A stretch of DNA of 64,000 nt from a virus, in IMG/VR virus record IMGVR_UViG_3300025327_000016, positions 35,840 through 99,839 of that record. The stretch is one strand, 5' to 3'. Positions 14,801 through 49,463 of this stretch are shown one piece after another; the stretch's first letter is position 1; every line of letters begins with the position of its first letter. Both the position numbers and the translations under genes were made by a program. Below the pieces are notes generated by a model. The model did no database searches and was not told where the DNA came from. It saw nothing but the letters and a program-made list of their open reading frames with translations.

Positions 14801-17800
14801 TAATACGGGGAAAATCAACAACCAGCGATTACTTAATAAGCTTTACGATCCAGAAATCAATATACGCCTATCGGCTAAGTATTTAGGATTACAACTTAAA
14901 GCAACTAAGGGAGACTATCAGCAAGCTCTTGCTGCATATAACGATGGTCTAGGTAACGTACTATCAGGAGCAGCATTTAAAAAACCTACAGTTCAAGCAT
15001 ATATTAATAATATTCTTGGTGCATCAGGTAAATTTAAGGCCAATGCTCAGTTAACTGGTGGTGTGCAAACAAAGAGTGGTACACATGGAGATAATAATTC
15101 CGCTCAGATGAAAATAGAAATACCCAACAGATCTGTTAGACAGATATTAGCAGAGACAGATACAGAATCCAATACAGTAAATGATGTTATAGCTGCAACA
15201 GCCCCTGTTCCTAGATATAAACCTGGTAAGTCAGATAGAGCTGCTTACCATGATTTATTAACCTATGATCAAACAGGAAGATTGGTATTAGCATTCCCTA
15301 CATATGTTCTTCAGTTACTCGATGAAGGACCAATGATATGGTGGTTTAAATGCATACCTATCTTTGCTAGCCTAAATTCTCTTATGGATGCTACGGTCCG
15401 TATGGATCGTCGAGAACCAGTGCATATAGCTACATTCACATTTGCTAATGCATACCACAGTATGGTACAGGGTGGATGGCAAGATCTAGGTGCTGATTAC
15501 GGTAGACATGTTCTTCAAACCACTAATGCTGGAGCAAACAATAATGCATTAGGTGGATTCCCTGCTATGATAGGTGATTACTTTGCATGGTTGGGCGCTT
15601 CATATCTAGCTTATCTTATTCCTAATAGAGAGATAATAGAATACATAAATGAACAGCGCACGCGCCAGTGGGAGCAAACAGCAATACGCCCAGGTATACG
15701 CATACATTTTAGATTGGGATATGGTTCCAATGGATTGCGGTTGCCCGTTGTGTTTAATGGAACGGTAGTAGCTACAGAGGTAGGAGAAGTAGTAGAGGTT
15801 ATAGCCGAAGGTGATGGTAGAGAATTAATGAATATATTCCCCGTTGCTAAGCCTAATGCCAAAATTAAAGACATACAGCTATATGAACATAGAGATCTCA
15901 TGGTTAATATGATGATGCCCTATGGAGCAGCTAGTGCTGAAGATGAAAGTGACATGGCTGAAACTCTTATGGGAGATTTCTGGGTACACTTAAAAGACGC
16001 ACTCAGCAAATCAACAGCTGGTCAATCAATGTCCCTAATAGGGAAGGGCTGGAAAGTTGTACATTTCGGTAGGCCCGTATATCCAGAACCAATAATGAAT
16101 GCCATGAAAGCTCAAGTAAATAGCAATAAACGATTTTTAGTGCAATCCATGCAAGAAACACTAGAAAGAATAAATGCTAAAGGAATACCATTACCAGATC
16201 AACTAATATTAGCAAGTGTAGCTATTAACTTTGATAATTTAACTTTTTTCGGAAGGACAACTATGGATTTAATAGAACCCCTAAGGGGTTTCTACTTAGC
16301 ATCCACAGATCCTAAAGCCTTTTATGGTGAAATAGGCGAGAATATATATTCACCAGCTGATGTAGCCAGATTAGCTAAGAAGGAAGATACACCTACACAG
16401 GAGGACTTCCTTCGTTCAGGTGGCCATAAACTTAATATGTTTATATTCAATAAGAACCCATGGGATGTTATGACCCTGTGTATGCAAACAAGCCCCAACT
16501 TTTACTTACAAGTACGTCCATTTGAATATAGATCAACCCTTTTCTTTGGAGAAGGATACTATGACTTTAGGTATGCATATCATAGAGTTAGCTCTAAGGA
16601 CATACAAAATAATAAAGAACACAATATAAATGTAACCCAAACATCTACTAGTCAAGTAGGTGTTAAAGATATTCAAAGAATTAAAGATTTAACTCGGACC
16701 ATCCTCAATTCACTACGTATGATTCAATCCACTCAAAACATACTTATTTCAGATGTTGCAATGACATTACTTGCTAATGATATTATCCTAAAGGAAGTAG
16801 AATTACAACAATTAACAAATCAAAAATATAAACCCATATTTAACGGTAATATTGATCATCCCAATACAGATGAAGTCCGTGCACAACTAGAAAAAGTATT
16901 AATGGAGCAATCACTTATAGCTCGCGGTAGAGAGCTTAACCAAACACTAGCTCAGAATGCTCAAACTGCTCCAGGAAGCACAACTGTATCTAATACCGAC
17001 CCTAATCCTGCTTACATCAATGACCCTCGTTTTGGGCTACCTGTAGCATATAAAATCAAAACCTTTTCTCAAGCTCATATATTTACCTCGGGTAATATTA
17101 TAGCTAATGACATACAAGTTAATAATGATCTTGTTTATACAGATATGCACGCTGTATGGTATGTATCTGACAGTGAACCTAAAATAGAACCTCAAGTAAT
17201 AGATAGCGCCATCTTCCCTCAATATCGCAAGAACCAAGTAGTTGATACTAGATTCTTAGCTACTAAGTTTAGTGACCCTTGGGATCATGCTGGATTTGGT
17301 ATACCTAATTTGTTTTTAAACTTTCTTACAGCTGGTATATGGGGTGGAATTAAAGATTTAATTAACAATACCATTAATGGTTGGCCACTCAGTTCTGCAC
17401 ATAGACAAGCTATCAAGATAACTAGATCATTACTTCGTGATTCTGCAAGAGAGATGTATCAAGGAAGCCTATTAGTTATGGGTACACCGTGGGCGTTCCC
17501 ATGTGATAAATTCTACTTAGCCGATTCATATGTAGAGATGAATGGTGTTGCTGATATAAAAGCAGTTACTCACCACTTTGGATTTGATACGGGATTTGTT
17601 ACAGATATTACGCCTGATATAGCCTGTGCTGTAAAAGGTGATAGGTTATGGGCTAACTATTTAGTGGGCATAGCAGCCATAGGTGCTACTGTTGTTGTAA
17701 GAAATGCGGTTACTACATGGTTAGCACATAGTGCTGCTAAACTCAAAAATACCTTATTGAAGGCAGGCAATACATTAAATAAAACAAAACAACTATTCCA

Positions 17801-18968
17801 AACTGCTAACTCAGCTCAAGCAACAGCCATTGTTGACGGTTTTGAAAATCCTACTACATCTACCTTATCTAAAGGCAAAGATCTTATTAATAAATTTTCT
17901 AAATCTGGCGGCGATGCCCTAAATAAAATCAAAGGCATGATACACATTATTGCTAGAGCCAAGCGTCTAAATACACTTGGTAAGATGATCAAAGCTGGTA
18001 AGACAACAACTAGTGCGGGCAAAAACATTATACAGCTAATTAAAGCAGGCAGTGTGGTTCTTAAGGCTACGGCAGTAGGTGAAGCAGCTACGGGTGTTGG
18101 TGCTCCTGTGGCAGCTGTACAATTCGCAGTATCTCTAGTACTAGATATACTAGTATGGCTAGTAGTTGATCGTATATTCTTATCAATAGAATACTGGCAA
18201 TCTAGTAAATATTCACTTATTATAGCACCTCTTAACTTTAGAGGTAGAGAATATACTGCAGGTATAGCAGGTCATAGACAGGGTACCGTAGTTACCCTTG
18301 GTGGAGATGATATACCTAATGCATCTAGTGATGACTTTACTCAACAAATAAAACAAATAAGAGAAGCTGGTAAGCAAGCTGAGGATGAGTATAAGGGTAA
18401 ACAACCCAATACCAATAATGAGGAGTTGGCTCCTCAGGGTGCGCGAGGAGGTACTAAATCATTGCCTCCATCTACATCTAAACAACCCGCTGATACGTCT
18501 AAACCCGTACCCGTTAAGTCTGGTCAGTATGTGCGTCCAGGCAATGGACCCACCACTAGCTCCTTCGGTGTTAACCGAGGAGATCATATTCATCAAGGCA
18601 TAGACATAGGTGTTCCTGAGGGCTCAGCTATACGTGCAATTTCAGATGGATATGTAGAAGCCCTAGGTACTCAGATAGGTTCTAGTGGTAGGGGATATGG
18701 AAACTGGTTAGCTATTAATCATGATGATGGCACTGCTGCTGGATATGCTCACTTACAGAACTACGAATTTGATCCAACCACTATGGCTCGCATTAGACGC
18801 GGTGAAAAAGTACGTATTATCAAAGGACAAGTAGTAGCTCGCTCAGGGGTATCAGGAGCACCTGGTCAACCACATCTTCATTTTGAAGCCGCATTAGGAC
18901 CAAACAAAGTATTAAGTGGACTTAGTGGAGATACCGTAGATCCGTGTAGTACTTTTGGAATATGTTAG
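11856..18968 (+). CDS. Giant tail lysin/baseplate hub protein with SLT and M23 peptidoglycan-cleaving domains
   Basis: This 2370-aa protein begins with a virion domain (IPPENISVNKVFQTTALSTI and an IRIEIELTF strand), and a related fold seems to recur near residues 1120-1220. Residues about 905-1050 form a lytic transglycosylase domain: TESNF with candidate catalytic E930, GYVGMGQLGP and AAYNDG. Hydrophobic stretches lie near 1930-1958 and 2061-2112. The C terminus is an M23 metallopeptidase with HQGIDIG (H2246, D2250) and HLHFE (H2340, H2342), the zinc and catalytic residues. It would open the glycan strands and the peptide cross-links during DNA injection. It starts three bases after the preceding stop. 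Confidence 0.8.
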   Translation: MSRDTNPNEASKLLTSQDRKDLLKIIDSGNALITILPELRKQNPNQELVRKARQYVSDIVDGESNLSLTRDQFFSPVILPLFRQEAMGAVGFVSKLVAMPDNGISTVQSAITNAERLGGKLIVAEANREFRQEGKETLGLNIGGFSGNYEALFENNDFPEAFDFPDREDLLGDPTYFRLGDSIFHIPPENISVNKVFQTTALSTIRTPGAQQHFAGRSDIRIEIELTFSNLNEIFGNASNVKKIKRDSGEEVVFGDPNCLASLVAQFRQTPFLPVLNSKLTIDYEIDAITLMSMQIGTVPGLPQALKVRLSMLAFNYKVYMPHVHFFTDAFIWPVFRWHWTNYHKSITANLIKHTIDPESNAFKHTPLGTNPNNAKLTSYWDDIASGAELLKSQWNSEISFSLVAEEALEQRKRIGALLRVQELSRAREQVADLEDALKKLRTQWIENGISDHLLTLNTQEPIIITQMSVTMENQITLMRMHDQEIAPHQFMGSQEDRIVVTLIANNDNNLITDLVNLFKNAQKYAREYRFEINDGFMTIDHPILKLLGIRYVVPQVILMDDVQGFPGWRQITMSFASFNRAERAFKDVKHVFQSDFFASDEFKKYLENNTNVESAGRSIDKELIEMALESMQTLQLYPDLQLPTFKEFSQGLLDIIKLVPEFTEQRAILVRHIKENNGLYVDPDFYMAWPLSQDKTTWVGLLQAHILDALNDAEIDGLEMTYASNFSVNPDGTNDRMTAKAIGRQKYGSIITHPHHDGLPMNEMVNSIIDTTSIGVSENARLVQETDAEARKILEEAKANATTKEERERIDKFEQHIFNARADDLKAKLDEIERFNSAALGPQPVPQSITGKIETSLGLPASTKPTPITLVAIESKTNNISIPSRAIDTYANNSVQDELQMSKIKDTIVSAAKENNIDPVVLTELFRTESNFQAHAKSPTGYVGMGQLGPAAACDASRALGGFLGAEEKAACDPNIINTFSNTGKINNQRLLNKLYDPEINIRLSAKYLGLQLKATKGDYQQALAAYNDGLGNVLSGAAFKKPTVQAYINNILGASGKFKANAQLTGGVQTKSGTHGDNNSAQMKIEIPNRSVRQILAETDTESNTVNDVIAATAPVPRYKPGKSDRAAYHDLLTYDQTGRLVLAFPTYVLQLLDEGPMIWWFKCIPIFASLNSLMDATVRMDRREPVHIATFTFANAYHSMVQGGWQDLGADYGRHVLQTTNAGANNNALGGFPAMIGDYFAWLGASYLAYLIPNREIIEYINEQRTRQWEQTAIRPGIRIHFRLGYGSNGLRLPVVFNGTVVATEVGEVVEVIAEGDGRELMNIFPVAKPNAKIKDIQLYEHRDLMVNMMMPYGAASAEDESDMAETLMGDFWVHLKDALSKSTAGQSMSLIGKGWKVVHFGRPVYPEPIMNAMKAQVNSNKRFLVQSMQETLERINAKGIPLPDQLILASVAINFDNLTFFGRTTMDLIEPLRGFYLASTDPKAFYGEIGENIYSPADVARLAKKEDTPTQEDFLRSGGHKLNMFIFNKNPWDVMTLCMQTSPNFYLQVRPFEYRSTLFFGEGYYDFRYAYHRVSSKDIQNNKEHNINVTQTSTSQVGVKDIQRIKDLTRTILNSLRMIQSTQNILISDVAMTLLANDIILKEVELQQLTNQKYKPIFNGNIDHPNTDEVRAQLEKVLMEQSLIARGRELNQTLAQNAQTAPGSTTVSNTDPNPAYINDPRFGLPVAYKIKTFSQAHIFTSGNIIANDIQVNNDLVYTDMHAVWYVSDSEPKIEPQVIDSAIFPQYRKNQVVDTRFLATKFSDPWDHAGFGIPNLFLNFLTAGIWGGIKDLINNTINGWPLSSAHRQAIKITRSLLRDSAREMYQGSLLVMGTPWAFPCDKFYLADSYVEMNGVADIKAVTHHFGFDTGFVTDITPDIACAVKGDRLWANYLVGIAAIGATVVVRNAVTTWLAHSAAKLKNTLLKAGNTLNKTKQLFQTANSAQATAIVDGFENPTTSTLSKGKDLINKFSKSGGDALNKIKGMIHIIARAKRLNTLGKMIKAGKTTTSAGKNIIQLIKAGSVVLKATAVGEAATGVGAPVAAVQFAVSLVLDILVWLVVDRIFLSIEYWQSSKYSLIIAPLNFRGREYTAGIAGHRQGTVVTLGGDDIPNASSDDFTQQIKQIREAGKQAEDEYKGKQPNTNNEELAPQGARGGTKSLPPSTSKQPADTSKPVPVKSGQYVRPGNGPTTSSFGVNRGDHIHQGIDIGVPEGSAIRAISDGYVEALGTQIGSSGRGYGNWLAINHDDGTAAGYAHLQNYEFDPTTMARIRRGEKVRIIKGQVVARSGVSGAPGQPHLHFEAALGPNKVLSGLSGDTVDPCSTFGIC

Positions 18969-38088: not shown

Positions 38089-38892
38089 ATGGCAGAATTA
38101 AGAAGCTTTAATGTACTACCAATAACTAGGTTGGTTCCTTCTTTTTGGAGAACAATAGTTGAATCTAACATTCAACGGTTTGGTGATGATATCTTAGATG
38201 AAGTACTTAACCTAAATGGTGGAGTAATGGTGGGGAATATTATCTTCTATCCTCTTCAAACCTTTGATAGTTCAGCTATATTAATACCAGATCCTGTATA
38301 TAATCATACGGGTATGTGGAATAGGCTTCCAGATCATATTAATGATGCATCTGTTCACCCACTTATAAATGATTTAGTTCTCTTACAAGACACATCACCT
38401 TCTGCTCAAGACGGTAATATAAGCGTAGCTGGTTTTATAGAAGCAGGACTGGGATTTATAGGTATGGGGACGGGTTTATTTGGTATACCATCAAGTAGTG
38501 TGTTTGGACTAGATGCCCACCTAATGGCCTCATTTAATCCACATGGAGCAACTCTTACCCAAACAGAAATAGCTACTGACCTACTTGATGTTAATACATC
38601 TGCTTATATTGAGTTACTTGATGTGGGGACATCAGCTACAGGACAGTGGTATGAAGAAGTTATGGGTACTCCTAGAAAGTTACTCGCTACTATAGTTGGT
38701 TCAGACACTACCCATATTGTACCAGGGGTACAAATATCAGTATACCATGGACTGGGTACTGTACCTACATTTATTACACTAACATCTAAAGATGGTGGCA
38801 CAGTATATCTATCAGCACCATCAGATCCAGCTTACTTTTATATCAAAGGATCTATTGCCTCATTACCATTTGATTGGAAGGTAGAAGTATAA
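38089..38892 (+). CDS. Fibre-tip-like virion protein
   Basis: This 267-aa protein has an unrecognised N-terminal 95 residues, then a Gly-rich middle (EAGLGFIGMGTGLFGIPSSS). The C-terminal 65 residues have ISVYHGLGTVPTFITLTSKDGG, ending FDWKVEV, a beta fold common at the distal ends of phage fibres ('HxLGxxPt'). It is the last virion gene before the lysis pair and overlaps the next start (TAATG). A receptor-binding or fibre-tip role is likely but not proven. Confidence 0.45.
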   Translation: MAELRSFNVLPITRLVPSFWRTIVESNIQRFGDDILDEVLNLNGGVMVGNIIFYPLQTFDSSAILIPDPVYNHTGMWNRLPDHINDASVHPLINDLVLLQDTSPSAQDGNISVAGFIEAGLGFIGMGTGLFGIPSSSVFGLDAHLMASFNPHGATLTQTEIATDLLDVNTSAYIELLDVGTSATGQWYEEVMGTPRKLLATIVGSDTTHIVPGVQISVYHGLGTVPTFITLTSKDGGTVYLSAPSDPAYFYIKGSIASLPFDWKVEV

Positions 38893-39227
38893 TGGCACCT
38901 ACAGACAATTTTGAAGAATTTGCAGCTAAGGTTGAAGCCCTAGAAGAAGATGTTAGAGATCTCAAAAAGGATATGCATGCTGAGATTCACGACATCAACC
39001 TAAAGGTTGATCGTCTCGCAGAAGCACTAGCAACCATTACAGAGAAGCTAGTATCACGTCCAGAGATACGTACATTGGATACCAACATAAGCCATCGTAT
39101 AGAAGCTGGTGAGAAACAAGTAGAGAAATTAGATGGTAGGATGTGGGCCCTTGTTATAGCTCTGTTCTTAAACTTCCTTTCAACAGGTGGTTACTTTCTT
39201 ATTAACCTACTTATGAAGGGGCGTTAA
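38892..39227 (+). CDS. Coiled-coil/single-TM protein, holin-accessory (XhlA-like) candidate
   Basis: I start this gene at ATG 38892, which overlaps the preceding stop, instead of an ATG 18 bases upstream; GGAAGG lies about 10 bases before it. The 111-aa product has a charged coiled coil (EALEEDVRDLKKDMHAEIHDI, then KVDRLAEALATITEKL) and one C-terminal membrane segment (WALVIALFLNFLSTGGYFLINLL) ending in basic residues. XhlA-type lysis proteins have this arrangement. Its stop overlaps the endolysin start, supporting a lysis role. A membrane-tethering protein of other function is possible. Confidence 0.5.
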   Translation: MAPTDNFEEFAAKVEALEEDVRDLKKDMHAEIHDINLKVDRLAEALATITEKLVSRPEIRTLDTNISHRIEAGEKQVEKLDGRMWALVIALFLNFLSTGGYFLINLLMKGR

Positions 39228-39718
39228 TGAGTGTATTGTATGGATGTATCCATCACACCGCATCGTCTGAGATGACACGCGAACAATTAAAATCCATAGA
39301 ACTCAACAACGGATTTAGCGACATACCATATCATTGGATAATACATCGCAATGGTATCGTAGAACTAGGTAGGCCAGAATCAGTTAAGAACGCAGCAAAC
39401 TATGGACTTAATGGTATTTCTGTGTCTGTAGCTCTTTTAGGCTACTTCCATGACGATTCCTTAGGCAAGAAGGTTAATATGCTTACGCCTACAGACGCTC
39501 AACTTAACTCACTATATAAAGTCATAGAAGGTTGGACACAGAGATACTCAGGCATAACCATATGTCGCCACAGAGATGTTAAAGATATAGCCAACAAAGT
39601 ACTTAAGTTAAGTATAGCAGAGTCTCAAATGGCTACAGCTTGCCCAGGTTCCTTCTTCCCTTCAGCCCAGGTTAAAACAATACTTACAACCAAGGGTATT
39701 AAGGTTTATTGGAAATAG
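39227..39718 (+). CDS. N-acetylmuramoyl-L-alanine amidase (endolysin)
   Basis: This 163-aa protein fits the Amidase_2/PGRP family of zinc amidases that cut the bond between muramic acid and the stem peptide. It shows IHHTAS (His 9/10), YHWIIHRNGIVELGRP, and HRDV (H115) with ACPG (C139), the usual zinc ligands. It is a single-domain enzyme without a wall-binding repeat and has no signal peptide, so it needs a holin for release. It overlaps the coiled-coil/TM gene by one base. Confidence 0.85.
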   Translation: MSVLYGCIHHTASSEMTREQLKSIELNNGFSDIPYHWIIHRNGIVELGRPESVKNAANYGLNGISVSVALLGYFHDDSLGKKVNMLTPTDAQLNSLYKVIEGWTQRYSGITICRHRDVKDIANKVLKLSIAESQMATACPGSFFPSAQVKTILTTKGIKVYWK

Positions 39719-39720
39719 GG

Positions 39721-39749
39721 TTGACTAACCACATCTCTCTTGTTATACT
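39721..39749 (+). promoter_or_regulatory. Strong sigma-70-like promoter for the glycan/lysis operon
   Basis: TTGACT (39721-39726) and TATACT (39744-39749) are 17 bases apart, with TGT completing an extended -10. The predicted start is near 39756, putting the ATG at 39759 at about +4. AAGGAG at 39753-39758 abuts the ATG and would be cut by this transcript start. The promoter begins two bases after the amidase stop and probably drives the operon that runs to 49433. Confidence 0.75.
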
Positions 39750-39758
39750 AATAAGGAG

Positions 39759-40877
39759 ATGATAACTAAACCCTCTATGGTATTTTACAGTGGTGCCCAA
39801 GGTGGTTGCGACTTCTATAGATGTCAGCAACCCTTTTCTATTATACGCAAATATCAACCTGATTGGACCAGTGCTAAGCTTAATCGCGTACATATAAGTA
39901 GTGATATGCAGCAATACAATATCACACATACCTATCGTAGTCATTTACCCATCATGCTCAAGGTATTTAAGCAAGCTAACACATTAGGTAAGATTACCAT
40001 CTTTGACTTAGATGACGATGTATTTCATATGCCTTCTTGGAATCAAGCTTATATAGAGTATCGTCCTGGTATAGTTAAAGTGCAATTAACACCTGCGATG
40101 CAAGCACACTTTAAACGCCCTTACATAGAATATAATGTTCTAGACAATATCCATCAGTTAATTAATAAGTCTACGTTTGCTACGGCCAGTACGCCATATC
40201 TAGCCAGTGAGATGGCTAAGCATCGAGATGATGGTATGGTATATGTGGTGCCCAATTTTATAGATGTAGATAATCTCCCACACATACCCACTAAGACACC
40301 AAGAGACATTATTAAATTGGGTTGGTCGGGTGGATATAACCACGAAGAAGATCTTAAGATAGCTCTACCTGCTGTAGAACAAATACTTCATCAATATCCA
40401 AATACCACCTTCACATTTATAGGTGCAGATTATAGAAGACTAATGAAGAACCCACCCAGCGACAGAGTATTTTATGTAAAAGGTAGCGCACTTGTGCCAG
40501 AATACTATCAGCTCCAAGCAGACGAGCAAATAGATATAGGAATCATACCTGTTACAGACGATCTAATTAATCTAAGTAAAAGTCCTATTAAGTGGATCGA
40601 GCATACTATGGCAGGTATGTCTACGATAGCTTCACCTATTGGATCGTACGCTGATAACATACAACACCAAAAAACAGGATGGCTAGTTAAAAAAAATAAG
40701 CATATAGAGTGGGTCAAGGGCATAGAGTATATGATAAATAACGTAGAAGAAGCACGAGCATACGTAAGTAATGCTCGGCAGGATATACTAAATAAACATA
40801 CCATGAGTAATGCAGCAGACATATTAATACCATTATTGGAGAAACATATATATGAAACTTTGTCTGTTACCTCCTAG
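39759..40877 (+). CDS. Glycosyltransferase, GT-B fold (GT4-like)
   Basis: This 372-aa protein resembles group-1 glycosyltransferases. An N-terminal Rossmann-like half includes KITIFDLDDDVF. The C-terminal half has KLGWSGGYNHEEDLKIALPAVEQIL, TFTFIGADYR, then SPIKWIEHTMAGMSTIASPIGSYADNI, where KxxExMAxGxPvIAS is the usual sugar-nucleotide region. The start at 39759 is supported by the promoter but lacks a spaced ribosome site; ATG 39777 is an alternative. Donor and acceptor cannot be told. It is the first gene of a seven-gene glycan cassette. Confidence 0.7.
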   Translation: MITKPSMVFYSGAQGGCDFYRCQQPFSIIRKYQPDWTSAKLNRVHISSDMQQYNITHTYRSHLPIMLKVFKQANTLGKITIFDLDDDVFHMPSWNQAYIEYRPGIVKVQLTPAMQAHFKRPYIEYNVLDNIHQLINKSTFATASTPYLASEMAKHRDDGMVYVVPNFIDVDNLPHIPTKTPRDIIKLGWSGGYNHEEDLKIALPAVEQILHQYPNTTFTFIGADYRRLMKNPPSDRVFYVKGSALVPEYYQLQADEQIDIGIIPVTDDLINLSKSPIKWIEHTMAGMSTIASPIGSYADNIQHQKTGWLVKKNKHIEWVKGIEYMINNVEEARAYVSNARQDILNKHTMSNAADILIPLLEKHIYETLSVTS

Positions 40878-41727
40878 AACCATAGCTAGTGGTGGTGTAT
40901 TGCGCCACCTAGATGCAATTAGAAGATATACTAAACACACAGTAGTGGATGCGCCTGCTGGCGCAGACATAGTACACGTACACGCTGGGTGGTCATCACT
41001 ACGTAGAGATATTTATACGTGTCATGGGTTAAATATTATAACTAAAGACACACCCTATTACTTTGTACGTGAGAACCAAATAGTAGAACAAAACCTGCGA
41101 AATTCACCTATTAATCTTACAGTATCTAATTGTTTTGCGTCAGCCCTTCAACAGAAGGGCTTCCGTATAGATTTTGTTATACCAAATGGCACTGACATTA
41201 ATTACAACATACAACCAGTGTATGAACCTTTTGTACTTTGGTTGGGTAGACTAGACCCAATTAAGCGTCCAGAGGAGCTAATACATATAGCCAACGAAGT
41301 GCCAAATCTTAAGTTTGTGGCTACCCTACCACAGGTTTGTGAAAAGCAAGCCAAACATGGTAATGTAGCTTGCGTGGGTGAAAACATACCCTTTCCATTA
41401 GCTCAAGATTTACTTCGTAGATGTAGTGTTTATCTACTTACCTCTGAGCTTGAAACATTTAGCATTAGTATATTAGAGGCATGGGCTATGCATAAACCAG
41501 TTGTAGCTAGACGTATGAGTGGGGCGCCAGCAGAGCTAATACGTGAAGGTATAGATGGTATGCTTTACGATAATATTAAAGATGCTATAACTCAAATAGA
41601 TAAGTGTCTTAGTAAACCTAAGTACTATGGATATGCTGGTTTTGAACATGTTCAAGATTTTTTATGGAAAGATATAATAAAAATAGTTGACGAGGTATAC
41701 GGTTTATGCAATATAGCCCGCAAGTAA
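40852..41727 (+). CDS. Glycosyltransferase, GT4 family
   Basis: This 291-aa protein is a compact GT-B enzyme. It has ADIVHVHAGW, the N-domain end NLTVSNCFASALQ, IPNGTDI, VLWLGRLDPIKRPEEL, and the E-x7-E segment ETFSISILEAWAMHKPVVA near residue 203 that contacts the donor in GT4 enzymes. It is shorter than the usual 350-400 aa, mostly in the N-terminal half. It overlaps the preceding gene by 26 bases, and GGAG upstream supports the start. A hairpin (41142-41161, AGCCCTTC/GAAGGGCT) lies inside it. Confidence 0.8.
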   Translation: MKLCLLPPRTIASGGVLRHLDAIRRYTKHTVVDAPAGADIVHVHAGWSSLRRDIYTCHGLNIITKDTPYYFVRENQIVEQNLRNSPINLTVSNCFASALQQKGFRIDFVIPNGTDINYNIQPVYEPFVLWLGRLDPIKRPEELIHIANEVPNLKFVATLPQVCEKQAKHGNVACVGENIPFPLAQDLLRRCSVYLLTSELETFSISILEAWAMHKPVVARRMSGAPAELIREGIDGMLYDNIKDAITQIDKCLSKPKYYGYAGFEHVQDFLWKDIIKIVDEVYGLCNIARK

Positions 41728-42518
41728 GCATAATAGTAATGAATCACAATAGGGTACAATTACTTAAGAAGTGTATAGATAGCATATTGCAACATACCAA
41801 TGATGTAGACTACGAACTTATCATAGTAGATGCTTGTTCTACGGATAGTAGCCGACAGTTTTTATTACAACATTATTCCAACAACGCTACGCTTATCTTT
41901 GAAGACAAACTACACTGCTATGCTACAAGTAATAATCGCGCAATAGGATTATCGCGAGGTAAGCACCTTGCTCTTATGAATAATGATTGTATGGCTACGC
42001 CAGGCTGGATAAGTAATGGTATTAAAGCAATGCAGGAAGATGACAAGATAGGACACCTAGCTCACCTAGTACTGCGTGGTGACAGGTATTCTATTATGAG
42101 CCATGGTGCGAACCTAGTCGCTAATGGTGACACAAGAGTACCTTTATGTCAATCCAATCTAAGTAATCCTGCTTGGAAGCAAGCAGGTAACTATGCTTAC
42201 GCTGGATTTGGAATATACCGAAGAGATTTATTTGATAAGATAGGCGGGATATGTGAAGAGTATGATAATCCTCCAAGCTATTTTCAGGATACACATTATG
42301 GATTAATGGTTAATATGCTAGGGTATGATGTTAGATATTGCCCAGAAAGTGTTATAATTCACTACATGGATCATACGGACAGAGAACATTTTAATGGTGC
42401 TCTAGTACAGGGTAAGGGACCATTCGTGAAGTACTGGAGTAAGTTCTTAGCAGAGAACGGAGGGTACGCTCCCTCATATCCCAAGCTACCTAACGAATCT
42501 AAACCATATATGAGTTAA
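41706..42518 (+). CDS. Glycosyltransferase, GT2 family (GT-A fold)
   Basis: This 270-aa protein begins VSIIVMNHNRVQLLKKCIDSIL, then ELIIVDACSTDSS, and has LMNNDCMATPGWI where GT2 enzymes carry the metal-binding DxD (here NND). Later, a WKQAGNYAYAGFGIYRRDLFDKIGG block and FQDTHYGLMVNMLGYDVRYCPES match the acceptor side, with the typical late Asp. It overlaps the preceding gene by 22 bases. It is probably a cytoplasmic transferase acting on a polysaccharide, lipid-linked glycan or protein; the substrate is unknown. Confidence 0.8.
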   Translation: MQYSPQVSIIVMNHNRVQLLKKCIDSILQHTNDVDYELIIVDACSTDSSRQFLLQHYSNNATLIFEDKLHCYATSNNRAIGLSRGKHLALMNNDCMATPGWISNGIKAMQEDDKIGHLAHLVLRGDRYSIMSHGANLVANGDTRVPLCQSNLSNPAWKQAGNYAYAGFGIYRRDLFDKIGGICEEYDNPPSYFQDTHYGLMVNMLGYDVRYCPESVIIHYMDHTDREHFNGALVQGKGPFVKYWSKFLAENGGYAPSYPKLPNESKPYMS

Positions 42519-42533
42519 GAGGAGACTACTAAT

Positions 42534-42773
42534 ATGATAGATAAGCAAGACAATACTAATTACACACATATTGGAGATTGCTCCGAAGAGTTACCTAAAC
42601 CTATAGTAATGAGTAATATTAAATTGACAGATAGCTATTATAATGACGTACAAATACTTGCAACAGAAGAACAAGTGAAGCGTATAGAAGCTAAGTTAGA
42701 TGTCATCCTCAAGCTATTAACTGATGAGAACGGCAATCCAAAACATTCCTCTCGCTGGTGTTGGAAAGACTAA
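42534..42773 (+). CDS. Small hypothetical protein in glycan operon
   Basis: This 79-aa hydrophilic protein has a C-terminal helix (TEEQVKRIEAKLDVILKLLTDENG) that could form a coiled coil. It has no signal peptide or membrane segment. GAGGAGACTACTAAT precedes the ATG. It lies between glycosyltransferase genes, and its role is unknown; a partner of a neighbouring enzyme or a leftover small phage gene are both possible. Confidence 0.4.
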   Translation: MIDKQDNTNYTHIGDCSEELPKPIVMSNIKLTDSYYNDVQILATEEQVKRIEAKLDVILKLLTDENGNPKHSSRWCWKD

Positions 42774-42795
42774 ACCCTCTTGGTAGGTACTTATC

Positions 42796-43737
42796 TTGCG
42801 TGGTATTGTAGTAGTCGAATCTCTTTTAGAAGGCAACCTATTCCATAGTATATGGAAAGCGTTTAGCAAACAGGTAGGAGCTATACCTTTTCTTTTAACA
42901 GCCAAAGATCATAGATTACAACAACACTTAATAGAAACAATCAACACATATAAGCCAGACTTTATAGTTGTACCCAATGGTCAATTTTTAGACAACAAAA
43001 TACTAAAAGCTTATACAAATATAGTACGTATTAATTGGCAAATAGATGATCCTTACTTTATCCAGCAACAACGTTCTCAACAGATAGCTTCCAATTATCA
43101 CCTAGTATATACAACGCACCTAGCCTCTACCTTTACATATAATCAAATGAATATTCAATCTAAATACCTTATGTTTGGAGTAGATCCTGAAGTCTATAAG
43201 CCACTACCCAATACACCCAAAACAATTGATATATCATTTATTGGTACACCATATACGCAACGAGAAAGTATGTTGCGTTCAGCTAAATTAAGTAACCACC
43301 TATCTAAATACAATTTTCAAATAATGGGTGGTTACGGAACCAAGTCTCCTACATGGACAGATAAACATAGATTAGATCCGATAGATGTAAACCAGGTTAT
43401 TAATCGTACTAAGATTAATTTATCTTTTACTGATCAACCACATGGTATTGCGGCTATGAAGTGTAGATTATTTGAACTCACAGCTGCAGGTGGTTTTGTA
43501 CTAACACAGTTCTGTCAAGAACTCTCTAGGTTCTTTGATCTAGGTAGGGAGATAGCTACTTTTCAAACAGCAGCTGACCTTATAGATCGTTTAAATTACT
43601 ATATGCAGCATCCAGATGAAGCACAGTCAATAGCTAACGCTGGATATAGAAGAACAATTAATTACCACACATATGATAAACGCATACAGATTATTCTAAG
43701 TGATATAGAAGGCATTTTATATAACATAAGGAAATAA
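42796..43737 (+). CDS. CgeB-like glycosyltransferase
   Basis: This 313-aa protein uses a TTG start (42796); GGTAGG lies upstream. It resembles CgeB/GT-B-type proteins: VVPNGQFLDNKI and NWQIDDPYF in the N-terminal half, YLMFGVDPEVYKPLP, DISFIGTPYTQRESML, INLSFTDQPHGIAAMKCRLFELTAAGGFVLTQFCQELSRFF, then a final helix with ANAGYRRTINYHTYDKRIQII. The KxRxFExxAxGgf segment is the typical CgeB donor-site signature. It would transfer a sugar in the same pathway as its neighbours. Confidence 0.7.
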   Translation: MRGIVVVESLLEGNLFHSIWKAFSKQVGAIPFLLTAKDHRLQQHLIETINTYKPDFIVVPNGQFLDNKILKAYTNIVRINWQIDDPYFIQQQRSQQIASNYHLVYTTHLASTFTYNQMNIQSKYLMFGVDPEVYKPLPNTPKTIDISFIGTPYTQRESMLRSAKLSNHLSKYNFQIMGGYGTKSPTWTDKHRLDPIDVNQVINRTKINLSFTDQPHGIAAMKCRLFELTAAGGFVLTQFCQELSRFFDLGREIATFQTAADLIDRLNYYMQHPDEAQSIANAGYRRTINYHTYDKRIQIILSDIEGILYNIRK

Positions 43738-43749
43738 AGGAGGGTAAAT

Positions 43750-44817
43750 ATGATCGGTATTATTTCATATAGCGGAAATGGTAATCTAGGAGACAATCTA
43801 TTACTCGATCAGGTTATTGCAGATTTTAAAGAGATAAATCCTATGTGTGAATTTGCAGCATGTTCTCCTTGCAGTGATGCTATCGTAAATAGATATGGTC
43901 TTAAACGAGTTACCTCACGAGACGAATTAGACGGCTCAGTTATTTTTGGTGGCGTAGTGGGTGACGCGCAGCGCAATATCCTTAAGAATTTTTTTGAAAC
44001 ATTTAGATATATGGAAGATCAGGGTAAGCCCGCTATCTTTTATGGTATAGGTGTTAATCCAATAACTACAGCTCTCAGTGCTGATATTATCTATGATGTT
44101 ATACAAAATGCTACCTTAGTAACGGTGCGAGATCAGATGTCATATAGACGCCTTAGACAAATAGGAGTAACCAGAGATATAATTATAGCTCCTGACATAG
44201 TCCTTCAAAGACAAATGAATCTTCATACTACCATCCAACCAGAGGGTATACTGTTTATTATGGCCGACTTCTTTGGATATGACAATACTAGGCATGAAGA
44301 TTTTATACATACATTAGCCGCAACAGTTGACTATTTTGCTAAGAAGAAAACAAAAGTCAGTGTTATGTCTTTTCATGACTCACGCGATCAGAAATGCATA
44401 CAAGCCATACAGTTTAATTCTGTATACGCACATAGAGTTAATTGGTTAACGGTTAAAGAACATGATTATCAAAGGATGTTTAATATATTCGAAGAACATA
44501 CCTGCATAGTACCTATGCGATTACATGCTATGATATCAGCCATACTTGTTGGTAGACCATGCGTACCCATAGCCTACCACACAAAGATGGATGAGCTGGC
44601 TGAGATGGCCCTAATAGATTTCTATAGTATACCGTTTGGAGACGGAACATCAAGCGATCATACACGAATGCCTTTAGATCAAGAATTCCTATCAGAAAAA
44701 ATAGAGAGAGTTATGTCAATTCCTTCATCACATGCATGTAAGGGATATGATAGAGTAAGGGAAGATAGTAAATTGCATTCCGTCTCACTTAGACAAGCTC
44801 TTCAAGGCAAGATATAA
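43750..44817 (+). CDS. Polysaccharide pyruvyltransferase family protein
   Basis: This 355-aa protein matches the PS_pyruv_trans family (CsaB/WcaK type), which adds pyruvate ketals to sugars of cell-surface polymers using phosphoenolpyruvate. Visible blocks are GNGNLGDNLLL near the N terminus, VIFGGVVGDAQ, FYGIGVNP, LVTVRDQMSYRRLRQIGV, CIVPMRLHAMISAILVGRPCVPIAYHTKMDELAEM. Some family members instead act as glycosyltransferase-like enzymes, so the exact reaction is uncertain. AAGGAGGG precedes its ATG. Its inclusion suggests a charged, acidic glycan product. Confidence 0.75.
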   Translation: MIGIISYSGNGNLGDNLLLDQVIADFKEINPMCEFAACSPCSDAIVNRYGLKRVTSRDELDGSVIFGGVVGDAQRNILKNFFETFRYMEDQGKPAIFYGIGVNPITTALSADIIYDVIQNATLVTVRDQMSYRRLRQIGVTRDIIIAPDIVLQRQMNLHTTIQPEGILFIMADFFGYDNTRHEDFIHTLAATVDYFAKKKTKVSVMSFHDSRDQKCIQAIQFNSVYAHRVNWLTVKEHDYQRMFNIFEEHTCIVPMRLHAMISAILVGRPCVPIAYHTKMDELAEMALIDFYSIPFGDGTSSDHTRMPLDQEFLSEKIERVMSIPSSHACKGYDRVREDSKLHSVSLRQALQGKI

Positions 44818-44818
44818 T

Positions 44819-45709
44819 ATGGCCAATATAGCTTTTATATCACATCACTATAATCTACCGTATGATACGGTGCCCATAGGCGGAGTACAACATCATATCA
44901 CTAAGATTACAGATAAGTTAAAGACCCGTGGACACAAAGTAGACTGGCACTATCATAATAAATCTCAGTATATTAACTGGAAGCAATATACCCATGTAGT
45001 TTTCCATGACTTTTATTCATATTTAGAAACCCCACCTCACATACATAAGACCATGGTTTACCATGGTTGGGAGGGTACATATCCTTTAAATAGAGATACA
45101 GTAGTAGGGCGTCAGCAACTTGCAGAGAAATGTAGTGGAATTATTAATATAGGTTCCTTCATACCTCAACACTATAAAACACCATGGGGATTGGTGACCT
45201 ATGGGGCTGTAGAGGGTAAGCCTGGATTATATAAACCATATAGTGGTACATATACCTATGTAGGAAGATTGAGTGATGATAATGCATTCCCTAAGGTGCT
45301 AGAATTTATAGAAGTGGTGCAAGCGCTTCATGTAGATATTTGCGGAGATGGACCCTACTATGGTAAAATGATACAAGGCATTAATATGGTATATCATGGT
45401 TTTACAGATCCAACACCATATATTCAATCTAACTCTATAGTAATCGTAGGAGGATATCTGACTATCCTAGATGCAGCTTTAGCAGCACGTCCCATAGTGG
45501 GACTATATCACCACGAATTACGTAGAGACTACTTAGAGATGCACCCAATGTATATCTATACATCAAACGATCCGCATCAATTAGCTAAAGACTTTCTTTC
45601 TCATGGAGAATTAAGTCGTAAAGAGCACGCATTAAAGAATCAGATAGGTGCAACTATGATGACATGGGATATCGTAGCCGATTTATATGAGAGAGCCATG
45701 AGCATATGA
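44819..45709 (+). CDS. Glycosyltransferase, GT4-like
   Basis: This 296-aa protein has PIGGVQHHITKITDKLKTRGHKV near the N terminus (the glycine-rich start typical of GT4 enzymes), VVFHDFYSYLE, VTYGAVEGKPGLYKP, YTYVGRLSDDNAFPKVLEFIE, LHVDICGDGPYY and a C-terminal YLTILDAALAARPIVGLYHHELRRDYLE. The usual E-x7-E is modified to GGYLTILDAALAARP, so catalysis may be altered. It starts one base after the preceding stop and overlaps the next gene by four bases. Confidence 0.7.
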   Translation: MANIAFISHHYNLPYDTVPIGGVQHHITKITDKLKTRGHKVDWHYHNKSQYINWKQYTHVVFHDFYSYLETPPHIHKTMVYHGWEGTYPLNRDTVVGRQQLAEKCSGIINIGSFIPQHYKTPWGLVTYGAVEGKPGLYKPYSGTYTYVGRLSDDNAFPKVLEFIEVVQALHVDICGDGPYYGKMIQGINMVYHGFTDPTPYIQSNSIVIVGGYLTILDAALAARPIVGLYHHELRRDYLEMHPMYIYTSNDPHQLAKDFLSHGELSRKEHALKNQIGATMMTWDIVADLYERAMSI

Positions 45710-46398
45710 TAACTATCTTAATGGTTACATACAATAGAGAACAACTACTTGAGCGAGCCTTATGTAGTATAGTCAATCAAACTAATCAGGATTTTAAGGT
45801 GGTAATAATTAACAACGGGGGTCAGCGACCCCACAAACTACTTCGTAAACTAAGACAAGACAATAGAATACAATGGATTAACATAGACAAGACTACATTA
45901 GCTGGAGCTCGCAATGAAGGATTAAAATTAATTACTACTTCACATGTTGCATACTTAGATGACGATGATGTTTACTTGCCTAATCACATAGATGTATTTA
46001 CACAGCATTTTCAAGATCATAAAGATTGTACTTTAGCTTATACGCAGTGTGAGTGGATACAAGAAGAAGCCAACAGGATATTTAATTTAACAGGAAGACC
46101 TTTTGATAGAAAACTATTTCTCATAAACAATTATATACCAGTAATATCCATAGCCCATAGAACAGATATATTCCCTCAATTCCAGTTTGATTCAGATCTC
46201 CAATATCATGAAGATTGGGAACTGTGGGGTAGATTAGCCCAACGCTATGATTTTTGCTATATACCAGAAACAACAGCGAGGTATTGCTTCAGACAGGACA
46301 ATATGTGCAGGATAAAATATAAGGAGATGATAGCTCACGAAAAAGCTATACGTAAACATCTAAACAATTATGCATCCCTAATTATCGAGAGGAAATAG
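45706..46398 (+). CDS. Glycosyltransferase, GT2 family (GT-A fold)
   Basis: This 230-aa protein has ITILMVTYNREQLLERALCSIVNQ at the N terminus, FKVVIINNGGQ, AGARNEGLKLITTSHVAYLDDDDVYLPNHI with the metal-binding DDDD, and late HEDWELWGRLAQRYDFCYIPETTARYCFR, where HEDWELW is the acceptor-side Asp motif. It is complete for a minimal GT2 enzyme. It is the last sugar gene of the cassette and is followed after two bases by the protease. A hairpin (45818-45832) lies inside it. Confidence 0.8.
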   Translation: MITILMVTYNREQLLERALCSIVNQTNQDFKVVIINNGGQRPHKLLRKLRQDNRIQWINIDKTTLAGARNEGLKLITTSHVAYLDDDDVYLPNHIDVFTQHFQDHKDCTLAYTQCEWIQEEANRIFNLTGRPFDRKLFLINNYIPVISIAHRTDIFPQFQFDSDLQYHEDWELWGRLAQRYDFCYIPETTARYCFRQDNMCRIKYKEMIAHEKAIRKHLNNYASLIIERK

Positions 46399-46400
46399 TT

Positions 46401-47297
46401 ATGAAGAATAAACCTATATTAGTATTTCTACTACTAACATTTTTACTTATACTATCTTATGATGTTAAATTACCTAAAACATTACCTACCAATGAACAAC
46501 TAGATAGTGCCACCCAAAAAATAACCTATGAGATAGTTGTACCAGTTATGGTCAATCGTATGCCCTCAAAATCTAAATTACAAAAACATATGCGTCTATA
46601 TAATCGAAAACTTACAACATTAGAGTTAGATATAAAAGAGGTAAACACACGAAAGCTATCTCCTAAGACAGTAAATATCACCTTACGCTGGACAGGATCT
46701 TCATTTGCAATTAAATCAGATAATTCAAGTACAGTCTACTTAACAGCATTTCATGTAGTTGATTGGGAGAACGTAGTGAATATGGTACAAGAAGCCATTA
46801 ATCAATCAGGAATTAATGCAAGGATATTAAGTAGGGATATTAAGGTAACAAACAATATGCTATATAAGGACTACCAAATGTACGATGCTCCTTTTAAAGT
46901 ATTAGGGAAAGCAAAGTATATGGACGTAGCATTACTACACAGCAATGCTACTAACATCCCAACAGTTAAGCTTGGCAGTAGCAATAAATTAATGATTGGG
47001 GATATAGTAAGGGCAATAGGATCTCCATTGGGATTACAGCATTCTTATTCTGAAGGATACGTTGCTAAGACGCATTCTATTATAGGACTTAGCGACTTCT
47101 TACAAGTAGATCTATCTATATCGCCAGGCAACAGTGGGTGTATGCTTGTTAACTCTAAGGGAGAAGTAGTAGGCATCATAGATGCGCTAATGGTTGCTAA
47201 ATATGGGGCATCACCTGGATTAGCTATACCAATAGATGATGTTAAAGAATGGATGAAGTACAATGGGTTTGAATACTTAATAAAAGGAAGTAATTAG
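46401..47297 (+). CDS. Membrane-anchored trypsin/HtrA-like serine protease
   Basis: This 298-aa protein has an N-terminal hydrophobic segment (residues 5-21) after a Lys-rich start, so it is anchored or exported. The protease domain shows all three catalytic residues: TAFHVVDW (H118), KYMDVALLHS (D175) and SPGNSGCML (S245). The loop RAIGSPLGL before the active site is also typical of HtrA/DegP-type enzymes. No PDZ domain follows. It would act outside the cytoplasmic membrane. Targets could be host surface proteins, lysis factors or superinfecting phage; none can be inferred from sequence. Confidence 0.8.
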   Translation: MKNKPILVFLLLTFLLILSYDVKLPKTLPTNEQLDSATQKITYEIVVPVMVNRMPSKSKLQKHMRLYNRKLTTLELDIKEVNTRKLSPKTVNITLRWTGSSFAIKSDNSSTVYLTAFHVVDWENVVNMVQEAINQSGINARILSRDIKVTNNMLYKDYQMYDAPFKVLGKAKYMDVALLHSNATNIPTVKLGSSNKLMIGDIVRAIGSPLGLQHSYSEGYVAKTHSIIGLSDFLQVDLSISPGNSGCMLVNSKGEVVGIIDALMVAKYGASPGLAIPIDDVKEWMKYNGFEYLIKGSN

Positions 47298-47298
47298 C

Positions 47299-47715
47299 AT
47301 GTTTGCTATACTGCAGATTATTACAGTAAATAGTTGGATGTTTACAGTGCTTATATTAACTCGTGTGATTGATTTATTGGTTACCGTTATAGAACAGCGT
47401 AAGAGCGGTAAGTTTGAAATGGGTAAGCTATCTCACTTCTTAGATAGACTTGTTCAACGCATACTTATAGTTATATTATTTCTATGTTTAGGCGCTTACA
47501 TGGAAGTGGGTATATTAGCAGCTAGTTTAGTAGTTGCCATAACAGTTCTAGAAGAAGCTAAATCCATAGCAGAGTCCGCTAATCTTACCTTATTAGTTGG
47601 TCTTATTGAGAAATTTGAAGGTAAACTACAGGATACAAATCCTGTAGTGAGTACTGCAGTTGAGGAAGCAGTAGAAGAAAACAAAAATAAATTTACTAAA
47701 GAAGATATAGTTTAG
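47299..47715 (+). CDS. Holin-like small membrane protein
   Basis: This 138-aa protein has about three membrane segments (near residues 5-28, 52-68 and 72-92) separated by a basic loop (EQRKSGKFEMGKLSHFLDR), and an acidic hydrophilic C terminus. The arrangement, including DLLVTVIEQRKSGKFEMGKLSH and a final ILAASLVVAITVLEEAKSI, resembles the Holin_4 family. It is 8 kb downstream of the amidase but in the same orientation. It starts one base after the protease stop, so it could also partner the protease. Confidence 0.55.
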   Translation: MFAILQIITVNSWMFTVLILTRVIDLLVTVIEQRKSGKFEMGKLSHFLDRLVQRILIVILFLCLGAYMEVGILAASLVVAITVLEEAKSIAESANLTLLVGLIEKFEGKLQDTNPVVSTAVEEAVEENKNKFTKEDIV

Positions 47716-47721
47716 ACATAT

Positions 47722-48552
47722 ATGTTATTACCACCAGTCAAGTACGCCCTTCAACAGCTAGTACGTAAAGCAGAAGCCCAAGCAGCCACTAGACCAGCTG
47801 CAATTTTTGCTACAATTGAAACCTTAGCATCATCAGCCATGAAAAAACTGGGAGTTACTTCTATAGATAAGGCTAGATATGCTCGTGGCATAGGGGGTTT
47901 ACGGCAGTGGTTGGGGAGAAAGGGGATAGGCGCAGAATATAATCAAAGTTTCTTAGAAAATCTAGCACAATCTCAGGCAGCAGGCACTGGTGAGACAAGT
48001 ATCGAACATGGAAAAAGTATTATTTCTGAGATGCTACAAGAAGGCACATTAAGTACTTCTCCAGCTGATTTGTCCAAATTAGTAGTATCAAAAGATCCGC
48101 TTGTTGGAATTAAACCAGAATATTTAACACTAAGTGAGAGCGAACTTAGTGCAATTATTAAATATACTCGTTCTGAAGCGCAGGATCGACAATATTGGAT
48201 TTCTACAAGACTAGCACGTAAGAAATATCAGGAAGAATTAGATAAAGTAGCGTCTTTAAAGGAACAACTACAGGAATCCAGATTGGGATACAGTGGCCCC
48301 TCAGCAGAAGACATTTCAACATATGAGACAGTTGAAGATTTTAAGATGTATGAGATCAAGCGGAAACAACTCATACACGATCGTGCTATAGCACACGAAA
48401 AACAAAAGGAAGTCATTAAAATGCGATCACTACCTGCACCAACAGAACAAAATCCAATAAAAACCAACAAGAAACGAATACAACACCAAGTGCGAGATCA
48501 AAAAACTAAACAAGGACATTTATTTCAAGGACCAGGAGGTTCGATATTGTGA
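47722..48552 (+). CDS. Hypothetical protein
   Basis: This 276-aa protein is mostly helical and charged: a basic N-terminal third (LRQWLGRKGIGAEYNQ), a helical centre with VASLKEQLQESRLGYSG, and a Lys/Gln-rich C terminus (IKTNKKRIQHQVRDQKTKQ). No membrane segment or enzyme motif is visible. No clear ribosome site precedes ATG 47722. It lies between a holin-like protein and a TM protein; a minor virion or scaffold protein is one possibility. The family is not recognised. Confidence 0.35.
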   Translation: MLLPPVKYALQQLVRKAEAQAATRPAAIFATIETLASSAMKKLGVTSIDKARYARGIGGLRQWLGRKGIGAEYNQSFLENLAQSQAAGTGETSIEHGKSIISEMLQEGTLSTSPADLSKLVVSKDPLVGIKPEYLTLSESELSAIIKYTRSEAQDRQYWISTRLARKKYQEELDKVASLKEQLQESRLGYSGPSAEDISTYETVEDFKMYEIKRKQLIHDRAIAHEKQKEVIKMRSLPAPTEQNPIKTNKKRIQHQVRDQKTKQGHLFQGPGGSIL

Positions 48553-49433
48553 GAACTATAAAACGCAGCTTAAGAAGTAAGGCTCCACCAGAAGGATATA
48601 TTTCTCTATCAGTAGCTATGACAGGGGTTATATTGATTCTCATAGGTATTATTATAATGGGATATTTATTTATACTAAAACCTATACAACAACAAAACCA
48701 ATTACTTGCATTACAACTTCAAGCCATGGCCAATAGACCCACAGATAAAGTACCGCTATCTAATAACCCATTACCGCCAGTTAACATACTAATACCCGCA
48801 TTAGCTGGCAATAATCCACTAGTTACATCACCCAATATTACATTAGGTAATTTACCAGCAATAGAGCGTGGAGCTACAGAAGCACTATCTAAAGCCCTAA
48901 ACATACCACTAGGAGAAGCATCTAGTTTACTCCAGAATCTAATCAATCAGAAGAAGAAATTAGGCGTTAAGATTACAACAGACGCATCCTCAGTGGCTAA
49001 AGCAGAACCTATTAAAATTACACCAAAAGAAGATGATAAAAAACCAATTACTGATATGTCTAAAGGAGAACTTAAACAGAGCGTAGCTGATGCAGTTAGA
49101 GAACAGGTTAATAATACTAAGATAGAGACGATAGTTAAGCCCAAGGCAGAGATAATAGAACTACCTACTAAGCACAGTAGGTGGAGTGCTATTTATTCCA
49201 CCTACGGACAAGGTATGAGCTATACGGTAGGTGAAGGTCGCATACCTTTTGTAGGTAAAATTAATTATGATGCTATGTTAATTAAACGCCGAGGAGGAGA
49301 CGATCTCGCAGTAGGTTTAGGTGTCTCGAAAGACCTAAACAAGAACAGAGATTATTTTGTGGGCGTAGGTGTTGCTGTGCCCTTTAGTGGCACGGGTATT
49401 GAGCCGATGGCATACATAGGCGTTCGGTTTTAG
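48549..49433 (+). CDS. Single-TM protein with beta-type C terminus
   Basis: This 294-aa protein starts at GTG 48549, overlapping the preceding stop, with AGGAGG about ten bases upstream. Arg/Lys-rich residues 1-16 are followed by one long membrane segment (about 19-45, VILILIGIIIMGYLFIL). Next come a Pro-rich linker and a helix, and the last 85 residues alternate short strands and end FVGVGVAVPFSGTGIEPMAYIGVRF. That ending is reminiscent of a transmembrane beta-hairpin, or a compact beta domain outside the membrane. It could be a spanin-like or anchoring protein; this is speculation. It ends the operon. Confidence 0.4.
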   Translation: MRTIKRSLRSKAPPEGYISLSVAMTGVILILIGIIIMGYLFILKPIQQQNQLLALQLQAMANRPTDKVPLSNNPLPPVNILIPALAGNNPLVTSPNITLGNLPAIERGATEALSKALNIPLGEASSLLQNLINQKKKLGVKITTDASSVAKAEPIKITPKEDDKKPITDMSKGELKQSVADAVREQVNNTKIETIVKPKAEIIELPTKHSRWSAIYSTYGQGMSYTVGEGRIPFVGKINYDAMLIKRRGGDDLAVGLGVSKDLNKNRDYFVGVGVAVPFSGTGIEPMAYIGVRF

Positions 49434-49434
49434 G

Positions 49435-49463
49435 TTGACATATATAGACTAAATGAATATAAT
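49435..49463 (+). promoter_or_regulatory. Consensus sigma-70 promoter, predicted leaderless start
   Basis: TTGACA (49435-49440) and TATAAT (49458-49463) are both perfect consensus boxes, 17 bases apart. The expected transcription start is at 49470, the A of the ATG. No ribosome binding site can be included. This would be the strongest host-type promoter in the window and drives the DNA-replication module. Confidence 0.85.

Follow-up and report, generated by a model that had tools for sequence, protein, structure and literature searches.

Why should a tailed phage carry, within its lysis region, a closely packed set of glycosyltransferase genes together with a gene for a putative pyruvyltransferase? 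The question arises from the window analyzed here, a stretch of 64,000 nucleotides at positions 35,840-99,839 of the 99.8-kb IMG/VR record IMGVR_UViG_3300025327_000016, in which the original prediction had recognized a seven-gene glycan cassette. The whole window is covered with 0 mismatches by a 161.4-kb contig, IMGVR_UViG_3300025146_000011, which was read end to end and to which the genome-wide results refer. The answer that we tentatively favor is that an acidic glycan is assembled in the cytosol late in infection and placed on one of the virion proteins, an explanation that is plausible, although we would not yet call it probable.

All seven large open reading frames (ORFs) of the predicted cassette were found in place, on the + strand between 39,759 and 46,398; an eighth ORF of 79 amino acids (aa), lying among them, had been overlooked. 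Neighboring ORFs either overlap or lie no more than 22 bases apart. The cassette and its promoter are as follows.

39721-39749, + strand: sigma-70 type promoter, TTGACT-N17-TATACT, with a TGn extended -10; the -10 box ends 9 nt before the annotated ATG
39759-40877, + strand: gene 1, glycosyltransferase of family 4 (GT4), phage-common family (PF00534 4e-10, phrog_7162 1e-30); alternative start, ATG 39777
40852-41727, + strand: gene 2, GT4 glycosyltransferase (PF13692 1.9e-13) with the EX7E motif ETFSISILE
41706-42518, + strand: gene 3, glycosyltransferase of family 2 (GT2; PF00535 6.6e-20), without a transmembrane segment by hydropathy
42534-42773, + strand: small ORF of 79 aa, AGGAG upstream, no family match
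42796-43737, + strand: gene 4, CgeB-type glycosyltransferase (Glyco_trans_1_2, PF13524 1.3e-30), TTG start
43750-44817, + strand: gene 5, CsaB-related polysaccharide ketal-pyruvyltransferase (PF04230 1.3e-27, TIGR03609 (CsaB) 2.3e-33)
44819-45709, + strand: gene 6, 296 aa, no family match, glycosyltransferase-B-like by eye only
45706-46398, + strand: gene 7, GT2 glycosyltransferase with a DDDD motif (PF00535 1.7e-20)

All of the large proteins but that of gene 6 matched a Pfam family (two GT4, two GT2, one CgeB-like glycosyltransferase and one PS_pyruv_trans), so that the predicted GT2, CgeB-like and pyruvyltransferase-like members were recovered, whereas only two of the three supposed GT4-like enzymes were. 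The third, encoded by gene 6, is a GT4 enzyme by eye only and is unproven as such. It matched nothing in Pfam, PHROGs, NCBIfam, PDB sequences, the phage collection or the plasmid collection, nothing was found when it was sought in genome contigs, and the EX7E motif is not present in it. Comparison of its profile with the gene 1 relatives gave no signal, a comparison in which the known GT4 protein of gene 2, used as a control, failed too. The predicted structures of gene 6 (predicted local distance difference test score, pLDDT, 33) and of gene 5 (pLDDT 44, from a four-sequence alignment) were too poor for a fold search.

The most distinctive member is gene 5. It passed the curated cut-off of PF04230 with 97.9 bits against 25.3, and its best named model was CsaB, although it stayed under the equivalog cut-off of TIGR03609 for CsaB in S-layer anchoring (115.8 of 213.1 bits). 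Mutants of CsaB have shown that R148, R207, H308 and K328 matter (PMC10435577). In gene 5, R127, R257-L-H259 and K279 (the K at H+20) correspond to CsaB R148/R306/H308/K328, R207 not being among the residues compared; the R/RxH/K spacing is the same as in Escherichia coli WcaK, to which the aligned identity is ~24%. Gene 5 therefore resembles CsaB and WcaK in family and in the compared residues for binding of phosphoenolpyruvate (PEP), and differs in its phage context and in falling below the CsaB equivalog cut-off. It is predicted from these residues to be a PF04230-family ketal-pyruvyltransferase acting in a PEP-dependent manner.

Viral pyruvyltransferases were rarely met. No PHROGs family matched gene 5, and PF04230 was found in none of the 41 other records among the 42 searched, which comprised the gene 1 carriers, the Moorella phage MTATph1 and the present phage. 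A degenerate DNA pattern for RLHA...G.P...Y..K retrieved nine more viral contigs, three of which carry a true PF04230 gene, and an alignment scan for further viral PF04230 contigs added none to these three; since the pattern does not capture the family in full, the three contigs give a minimum estimate of prevalence. The genes in question are the following.

L105:1-1020, - strand: phage PF04230 gene, its start overlapping the stop codon of the gene for a capsid-like protein (TGATG)
L106:5104-6222, - strand: phage PF04230 gene in a head operon, downstream of a capsid-like gene
L100:3507-4637, - strand: phage PF04230 gene, gene order as in L106

These genes share with gene 5 the family and the residues, at 22-28% identity. 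In L106 and L100 the PF04230 gene is paired with a gene for a 314-315 aa "LILGNGISRL" protein of no known family (314 aa in L106), and not with a GT2/GT4 cassette as in the window. The capsid and head identities in the three contigs were read from sequence and are not profile matches; the context is clear in L105 and L106.

The position of the cassette supplied further evidence. The original prediction of one operon with its own promoter, set between an endolysin gene and a surface protease gene, was correct as to promoter, near-gapless packing and both flanks, but the unit does not end with gene 7.

39227-39718, + strand: Amidase_2 endolysin, just upstream of the cassette promoter (PF01510 2e-11, phrog_822 2e-22)
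46401-47297, + strand: HtrA/Deg-like trypsin-fold protease with an N-terminal hydrophobic anchor (PF13365 (Trypsin_2) 1e-16, TIGR02037 4e-30; hydropathy 2.27 at residue 6)
47299-47715, + strand: holin-like membrane protein (PF05105 Phage_holin_4_1 4.6e-4; 20.7 bits, under the cut-off of 22.2)
49435-49463, + strand: perfect promoter TTGACA-N17-TATAAT in a 36-base gap, opening the next unit (ORF 49470, primase, helicase)

Past 46,398 the gaps are 2 bases before the protease gene, 1 before the holin-like gene, and 6 and an overlap for two further ORFs. Since no gap exceeds 6 bases between 46,398 and 49,433, the protease gene, the holin-like gene and both ORFs belong to the transcription unit of the cassette, the end of which is marked by the perfect promoter. 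The unit thus extends to 49,433, and the cassette, lying between the virion/endolysin genes and the holin-like gene, is part of the lysis region. The second of the two ORFs (48549-49433), with an N-terminal transmembrane segment and a strand-rich C-terminal end, is a spanin-like candidate by eye and matched no family.

The cassette promoter sits in the one gap of 40 bases, for which a Markov model expects ~0.0007 such sites. A consensus scan of the genome gave 44 promoter-like sites against 56 in shuffles; as there is no genome-wide excess, the weight of the call rests on position. Intergenic bases amount to 8.1 kb of 161 kb, where the same kind of model expects ~0.3 sites this strong or stronger on both strands. 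The -10 boxes of the promoters at 29198, 39721 and 49435 end 6-10 bases before the annotated ATGs (29,237, 39,759 and 49,470), a spacing that would give leaderless or nearly leaderless mRNAs, unless gene 1 starts at ATG 39,777. Promoter class was dropped as a guide to infection timing, for the promoters at 29198 (structural gene), 39721 (cassette) and 49435 (replication genes) are all of the sigma-70 type.

Where the enzymes would act was suggested by what accompanies them. Neither a flippase (PF01943), nor an initiating glycosyl-phosphate transferase (PF02397), nor a sugar nucleotidyltransferase (PF00483) was matched in the 161-kb genome, with controls working, and hydropathy revealed no stretch in the cassette proteins hydrophobic enough for a transmembrane helix. 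Hence the enzymes should act in the cytosol on nucleotide sugars of the host, and the acceptor should be something cytosolic, which could be a protein of the virion or a lipid-linked precursor of the host. Recourse to the host has a parallel in Paramecium bursaria chlorella virus 1 (PBCV-1), which draws on host nucleotide sugars for several of its sugars (PMC9614988). The predicted capacity for a short charged oligosaccharide is reasonable if the host supplies the sugar nucleotides, and not otherwise.

According to the favored explanation, the five recognized glycosyltransferases, and possibly gene 6 too, would draw on host sugar nucleotides to assemble a short chain, branched or linear, on a virion protein of the phage. 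Ketal-linked pyruvate, taken from PEP, would then be added by the CsaB-like enzyme, which would make the chain acidic. A virion so decorated could withstand host enzymes or antibodies, or its binding to the host surface could change. Among cytosolic acceptors a virion protein is preferred because the cassette lies beside virion and lysis genes and is co-transcribed with the holin-like gene, and because the other phage PF04230 genes, where their context can be read, sit in head operons. Late timing, the virion acceptor, the identity of the sugars and the benefit are parts of this explanation that we infer and did not observe.

The closest known counterpart is a eukaryotic giant virus. Acanthamoeba polyphaga mimivirus (Mimivirus, APMV) has five glycosyltransferases and a putative pyruvyltransferase in one glycogene cluster (PMC9614988), and its virion fibrils bear a pyruvylated polysaccharide (PMC8456856), the only pyruvylated virion glycan in the literature found. 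The two viruses are alike in encoding a cluster of several glycosyltransferases with one putative pyruvyltransferase, the Mimivirus product of which sits on the virion; they differ in that Mimivirus has its own UDP-Rha and UDP-Vio4NAc pathways, whereas the window phage has no detectable sugar-nucleotide genes, and no homology between the clusters is claimed. The most far-reaching proposal is that a tailed phage, using a ketal-pyruvyltransferase and five or six glycosyltransferases of its own, makes an acidic pyruvylated virion glycan as an independent counterpart of the Mimivirus fibril coat; this is possible but rather doubtful. Among tailed phages, mycobacteriophages carry glycans on capsid and tail tube, as far as the work of Freeman et al. 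(2023) is described in PMC12619734. They share with the window phage the tailed form and glycosyltransferase genes, and differ in usually having one or few of the latter. To our knowledge, no pyruvyltransferase takes part in mycobacteriophage virion glycosylation.

Several points weigh against a virion glycan. Neither an acceptor protein nor a chain-starting protein-O-glycosyltransferase was identified; late timing was deduced from gene neighbors only, and the promoter is of the host sigma-70 type; the named models closest to the cassette enzymes are those of bacterial enzymes for surface polymers (CsaB, TuaG, EpsD and WcaA); and both virus records are metagenomic and perhaps incomplete, so export genes may lie outside them.

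The virion gene region also encodes a 1242-aa protein (8125-11853). Its residues 588-750 form an exonuclease domain of the DNA_pol_A_exo1/RNase D type, and it has a long repeat stretch, rich in Pro, Thr and Ala, which is a conceivable O-glycosylation target. The protein is followed by a tail-region protein of 2370 aa (11856-18968) combining SLT transglycosylase and M23 peptidase domains.

The main rival is modification of the host surface, by which the enzymes would act on host precursors linked to undecaprenyl pyrophosphate, whether of an exopolysaccharide or of a secondary cell wall polymer. Added sugars or pyruvyl groups would alter the receptor and thereby keep other phages from adsorbing, and the flippase, polymerase and ligase of the host would export the product. 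CsaB itself pyruvylates a ManNAc-GlcNAc-PP-lipid acceptor (N-acetylmannosamine-N-acetylglucosamine linked to lipid pyrophosphate; PMC10435577), both GT2 genes score highest with TuaG, EpsD and WcaA, and the host of the one related isolate, Moorella, is a Firmicute. The shortfall of gene 5 against the CsaB equivalog cut-off tells against this rival, as do the undetected flippase, initiating transferase and lipid-anchored glycosyltransferase. Co-transcription with the holin-like gene would leave such a change little time to pay off, and lysogenic conversion is unlikely, since no integrase family appeared among the Pfam matches of the ORFs scanned (outside the window, those of at least 130 aa, except a few piece-crossing ORFs and a handful of others). 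Serotype conversion by gtrABC is similar in its phage glycosyltransferases, and genes 3 and 7 gave weak GtrB-like PHROG matches; the cassette differs in having no transmembrane segments, no PF01943 match and no integrase family among the ORFs scanned, GtrA itself not having been searched for. Head operons with PF04230 genes, the pyruvylated fibrils of Mimivirus and the undetected flippase, initiating transferase and transmembrane segments together weaken the original argument that the pyruvyl-type member favors a surface polymer, and we consider host-surface modification rather unlikely. Still less likely is some other target, be it a small molecule, a storage glycan, tRNA or a host protein, or a loose group of morons that are unrelated and yield no common product. 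This would accord with the absence of an experimental acceptor and with gene 6 and the 79-aa ORF having no known family, but overlapping co-directional genes, phage-like codon use and one promoter suggest a long-resident joint pathway.

Indirect modification of DNA bases had also been proposed; the glycosyltransferases would then glycosylate modified bases and make phage DNA resistant to restriction. The cassette enzymes appear soluble, and DNA-glycosylating phage glycosyltransferases are known (Pyle et al. 2024, as cited in PMC12619734). Against this stands the complete avoidance of CCGG, the mark of restriction-open DNA: the 161.4-kb genome has 0 sites, where its CCG, CGG and CG counts predict 71.6 and its base composition by itself 188, the 99.8-kb record also has 0, and the window 0 of 24.3 expected, while GGCC is depleted to 0.59 in the 161.4-kb genome. 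In a 50-kb stretch of MTATph1, GATC occurs 0 times against 145 expected, which suggests total restriction-site avoidance in related phages, with different sites in each. Phages that seem to dodge restriction by site loss would not need it if a glycan shielded their DNA, although a modification leaving this one enzyme unblocked would be compatible with the loss of CCGG. No ThyA-type base hydroxymethylase was found in the genome, with controls working, and the presence of ThyX, dUTPase and a uracil-DNA glycosylase-family protein suggests ordinary thymine; a search for TET/JBP oxygenases was uninformative, its controls being silent. We know of no precedent for pyruvylated DNA. Mainly on the total absence of CCGG and of a ThyA-like enzyme, DNA modification was rejected as very improbable.

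Phage glycosyltransferases are common and mostly without assigned function, and multi-glycosyltransferase blocks in phages are already known ground. Relatives of gene 1 (phrog_7162) were found in 133 phage records and 74 other viral contigs, and several GT2 genes occur in other records among the 42 searched, one of which (G013) packs five matches, four to GT2 and one to GT4, into ~6.5 kb. In the Manatee Spring podovirus MW202801, a gene 1 relative lies in a six-gene carbohydrate-type block among head genes (two glycosyltransferases, NodB, PhyH, a methyltransferase and an Fe-S enzyme), which differs from the window cassette in its other enzymes and has no PF04230. A charged sugar coat on the phage particle, or an altered host surface, would belong to a familiar type of strategy, in which the pyruvyltransferase is the unusual enzyme. 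If the product sits on the virion, a charged phage coat becomes testable genetically and chemically; if it sits on the host, it would represent a new route of superinfection exclusion via the pyruvyl epitope that anchors S-layer proteins.

The same gene order was sought elsewhere, as the original prediction had suggested: a DNA search of other viruses and genomes for the cassette gave no match, and scans for its relatives with the primase, the helicase and a virion protein returned the 161-kb copy only, or nothing. Among isolates, only MTATph1 detectably matched the virion protein that was tested; it shares with the window phage the order virion genes, primase, helicase, sigma-like regulator and Cas4 (identity 37% for the primase, 34% for the helicase and 29% for Cas4). 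The last shared virion gene and the primase lie within ~1 kb in MTATph1, against ~12 kb, cassette included, in the window. No window protein of at least 80 aa from 38,089-49,433 matched the syntenic 50-kb MTATph1 stretch, and MTATph1 has no PF00534, PF00535, PF13692 or PF04230 match; the glycan cassette is absent from it. Recent acquisition of the cassette is not supported, since its codon use and its G+C content at third codon positions lie inside the phage's own range.

The 161.4-kb genome (L004-L012) is otherwise that of a tailed phage, with terminase, portal, capsid, baseplate, primase, DnaB-type helicase, RuvC, Cas4-like exonuclease, ribonucleotide reductase, ThyX and, assigned by eye, a DNA polymerase III alpha-type protein. 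At L014:1-640, ~53 copies of a 12-bp unit encode, on the - strand, a four-residue repeat protein of the Ser-Ala-Val-Gly/Asp type; this array is absent from the 161-kb contig, whose start lies further in. A patatin-like phospholipase gene was noted inside a virion gene region (L010:15414-16247, - strand), and a small RF-1-domain protein with a GGQ-like stretch (L005:17481-17900, + strand) is a candidate for a release factor or a ribosome-rescue factor.

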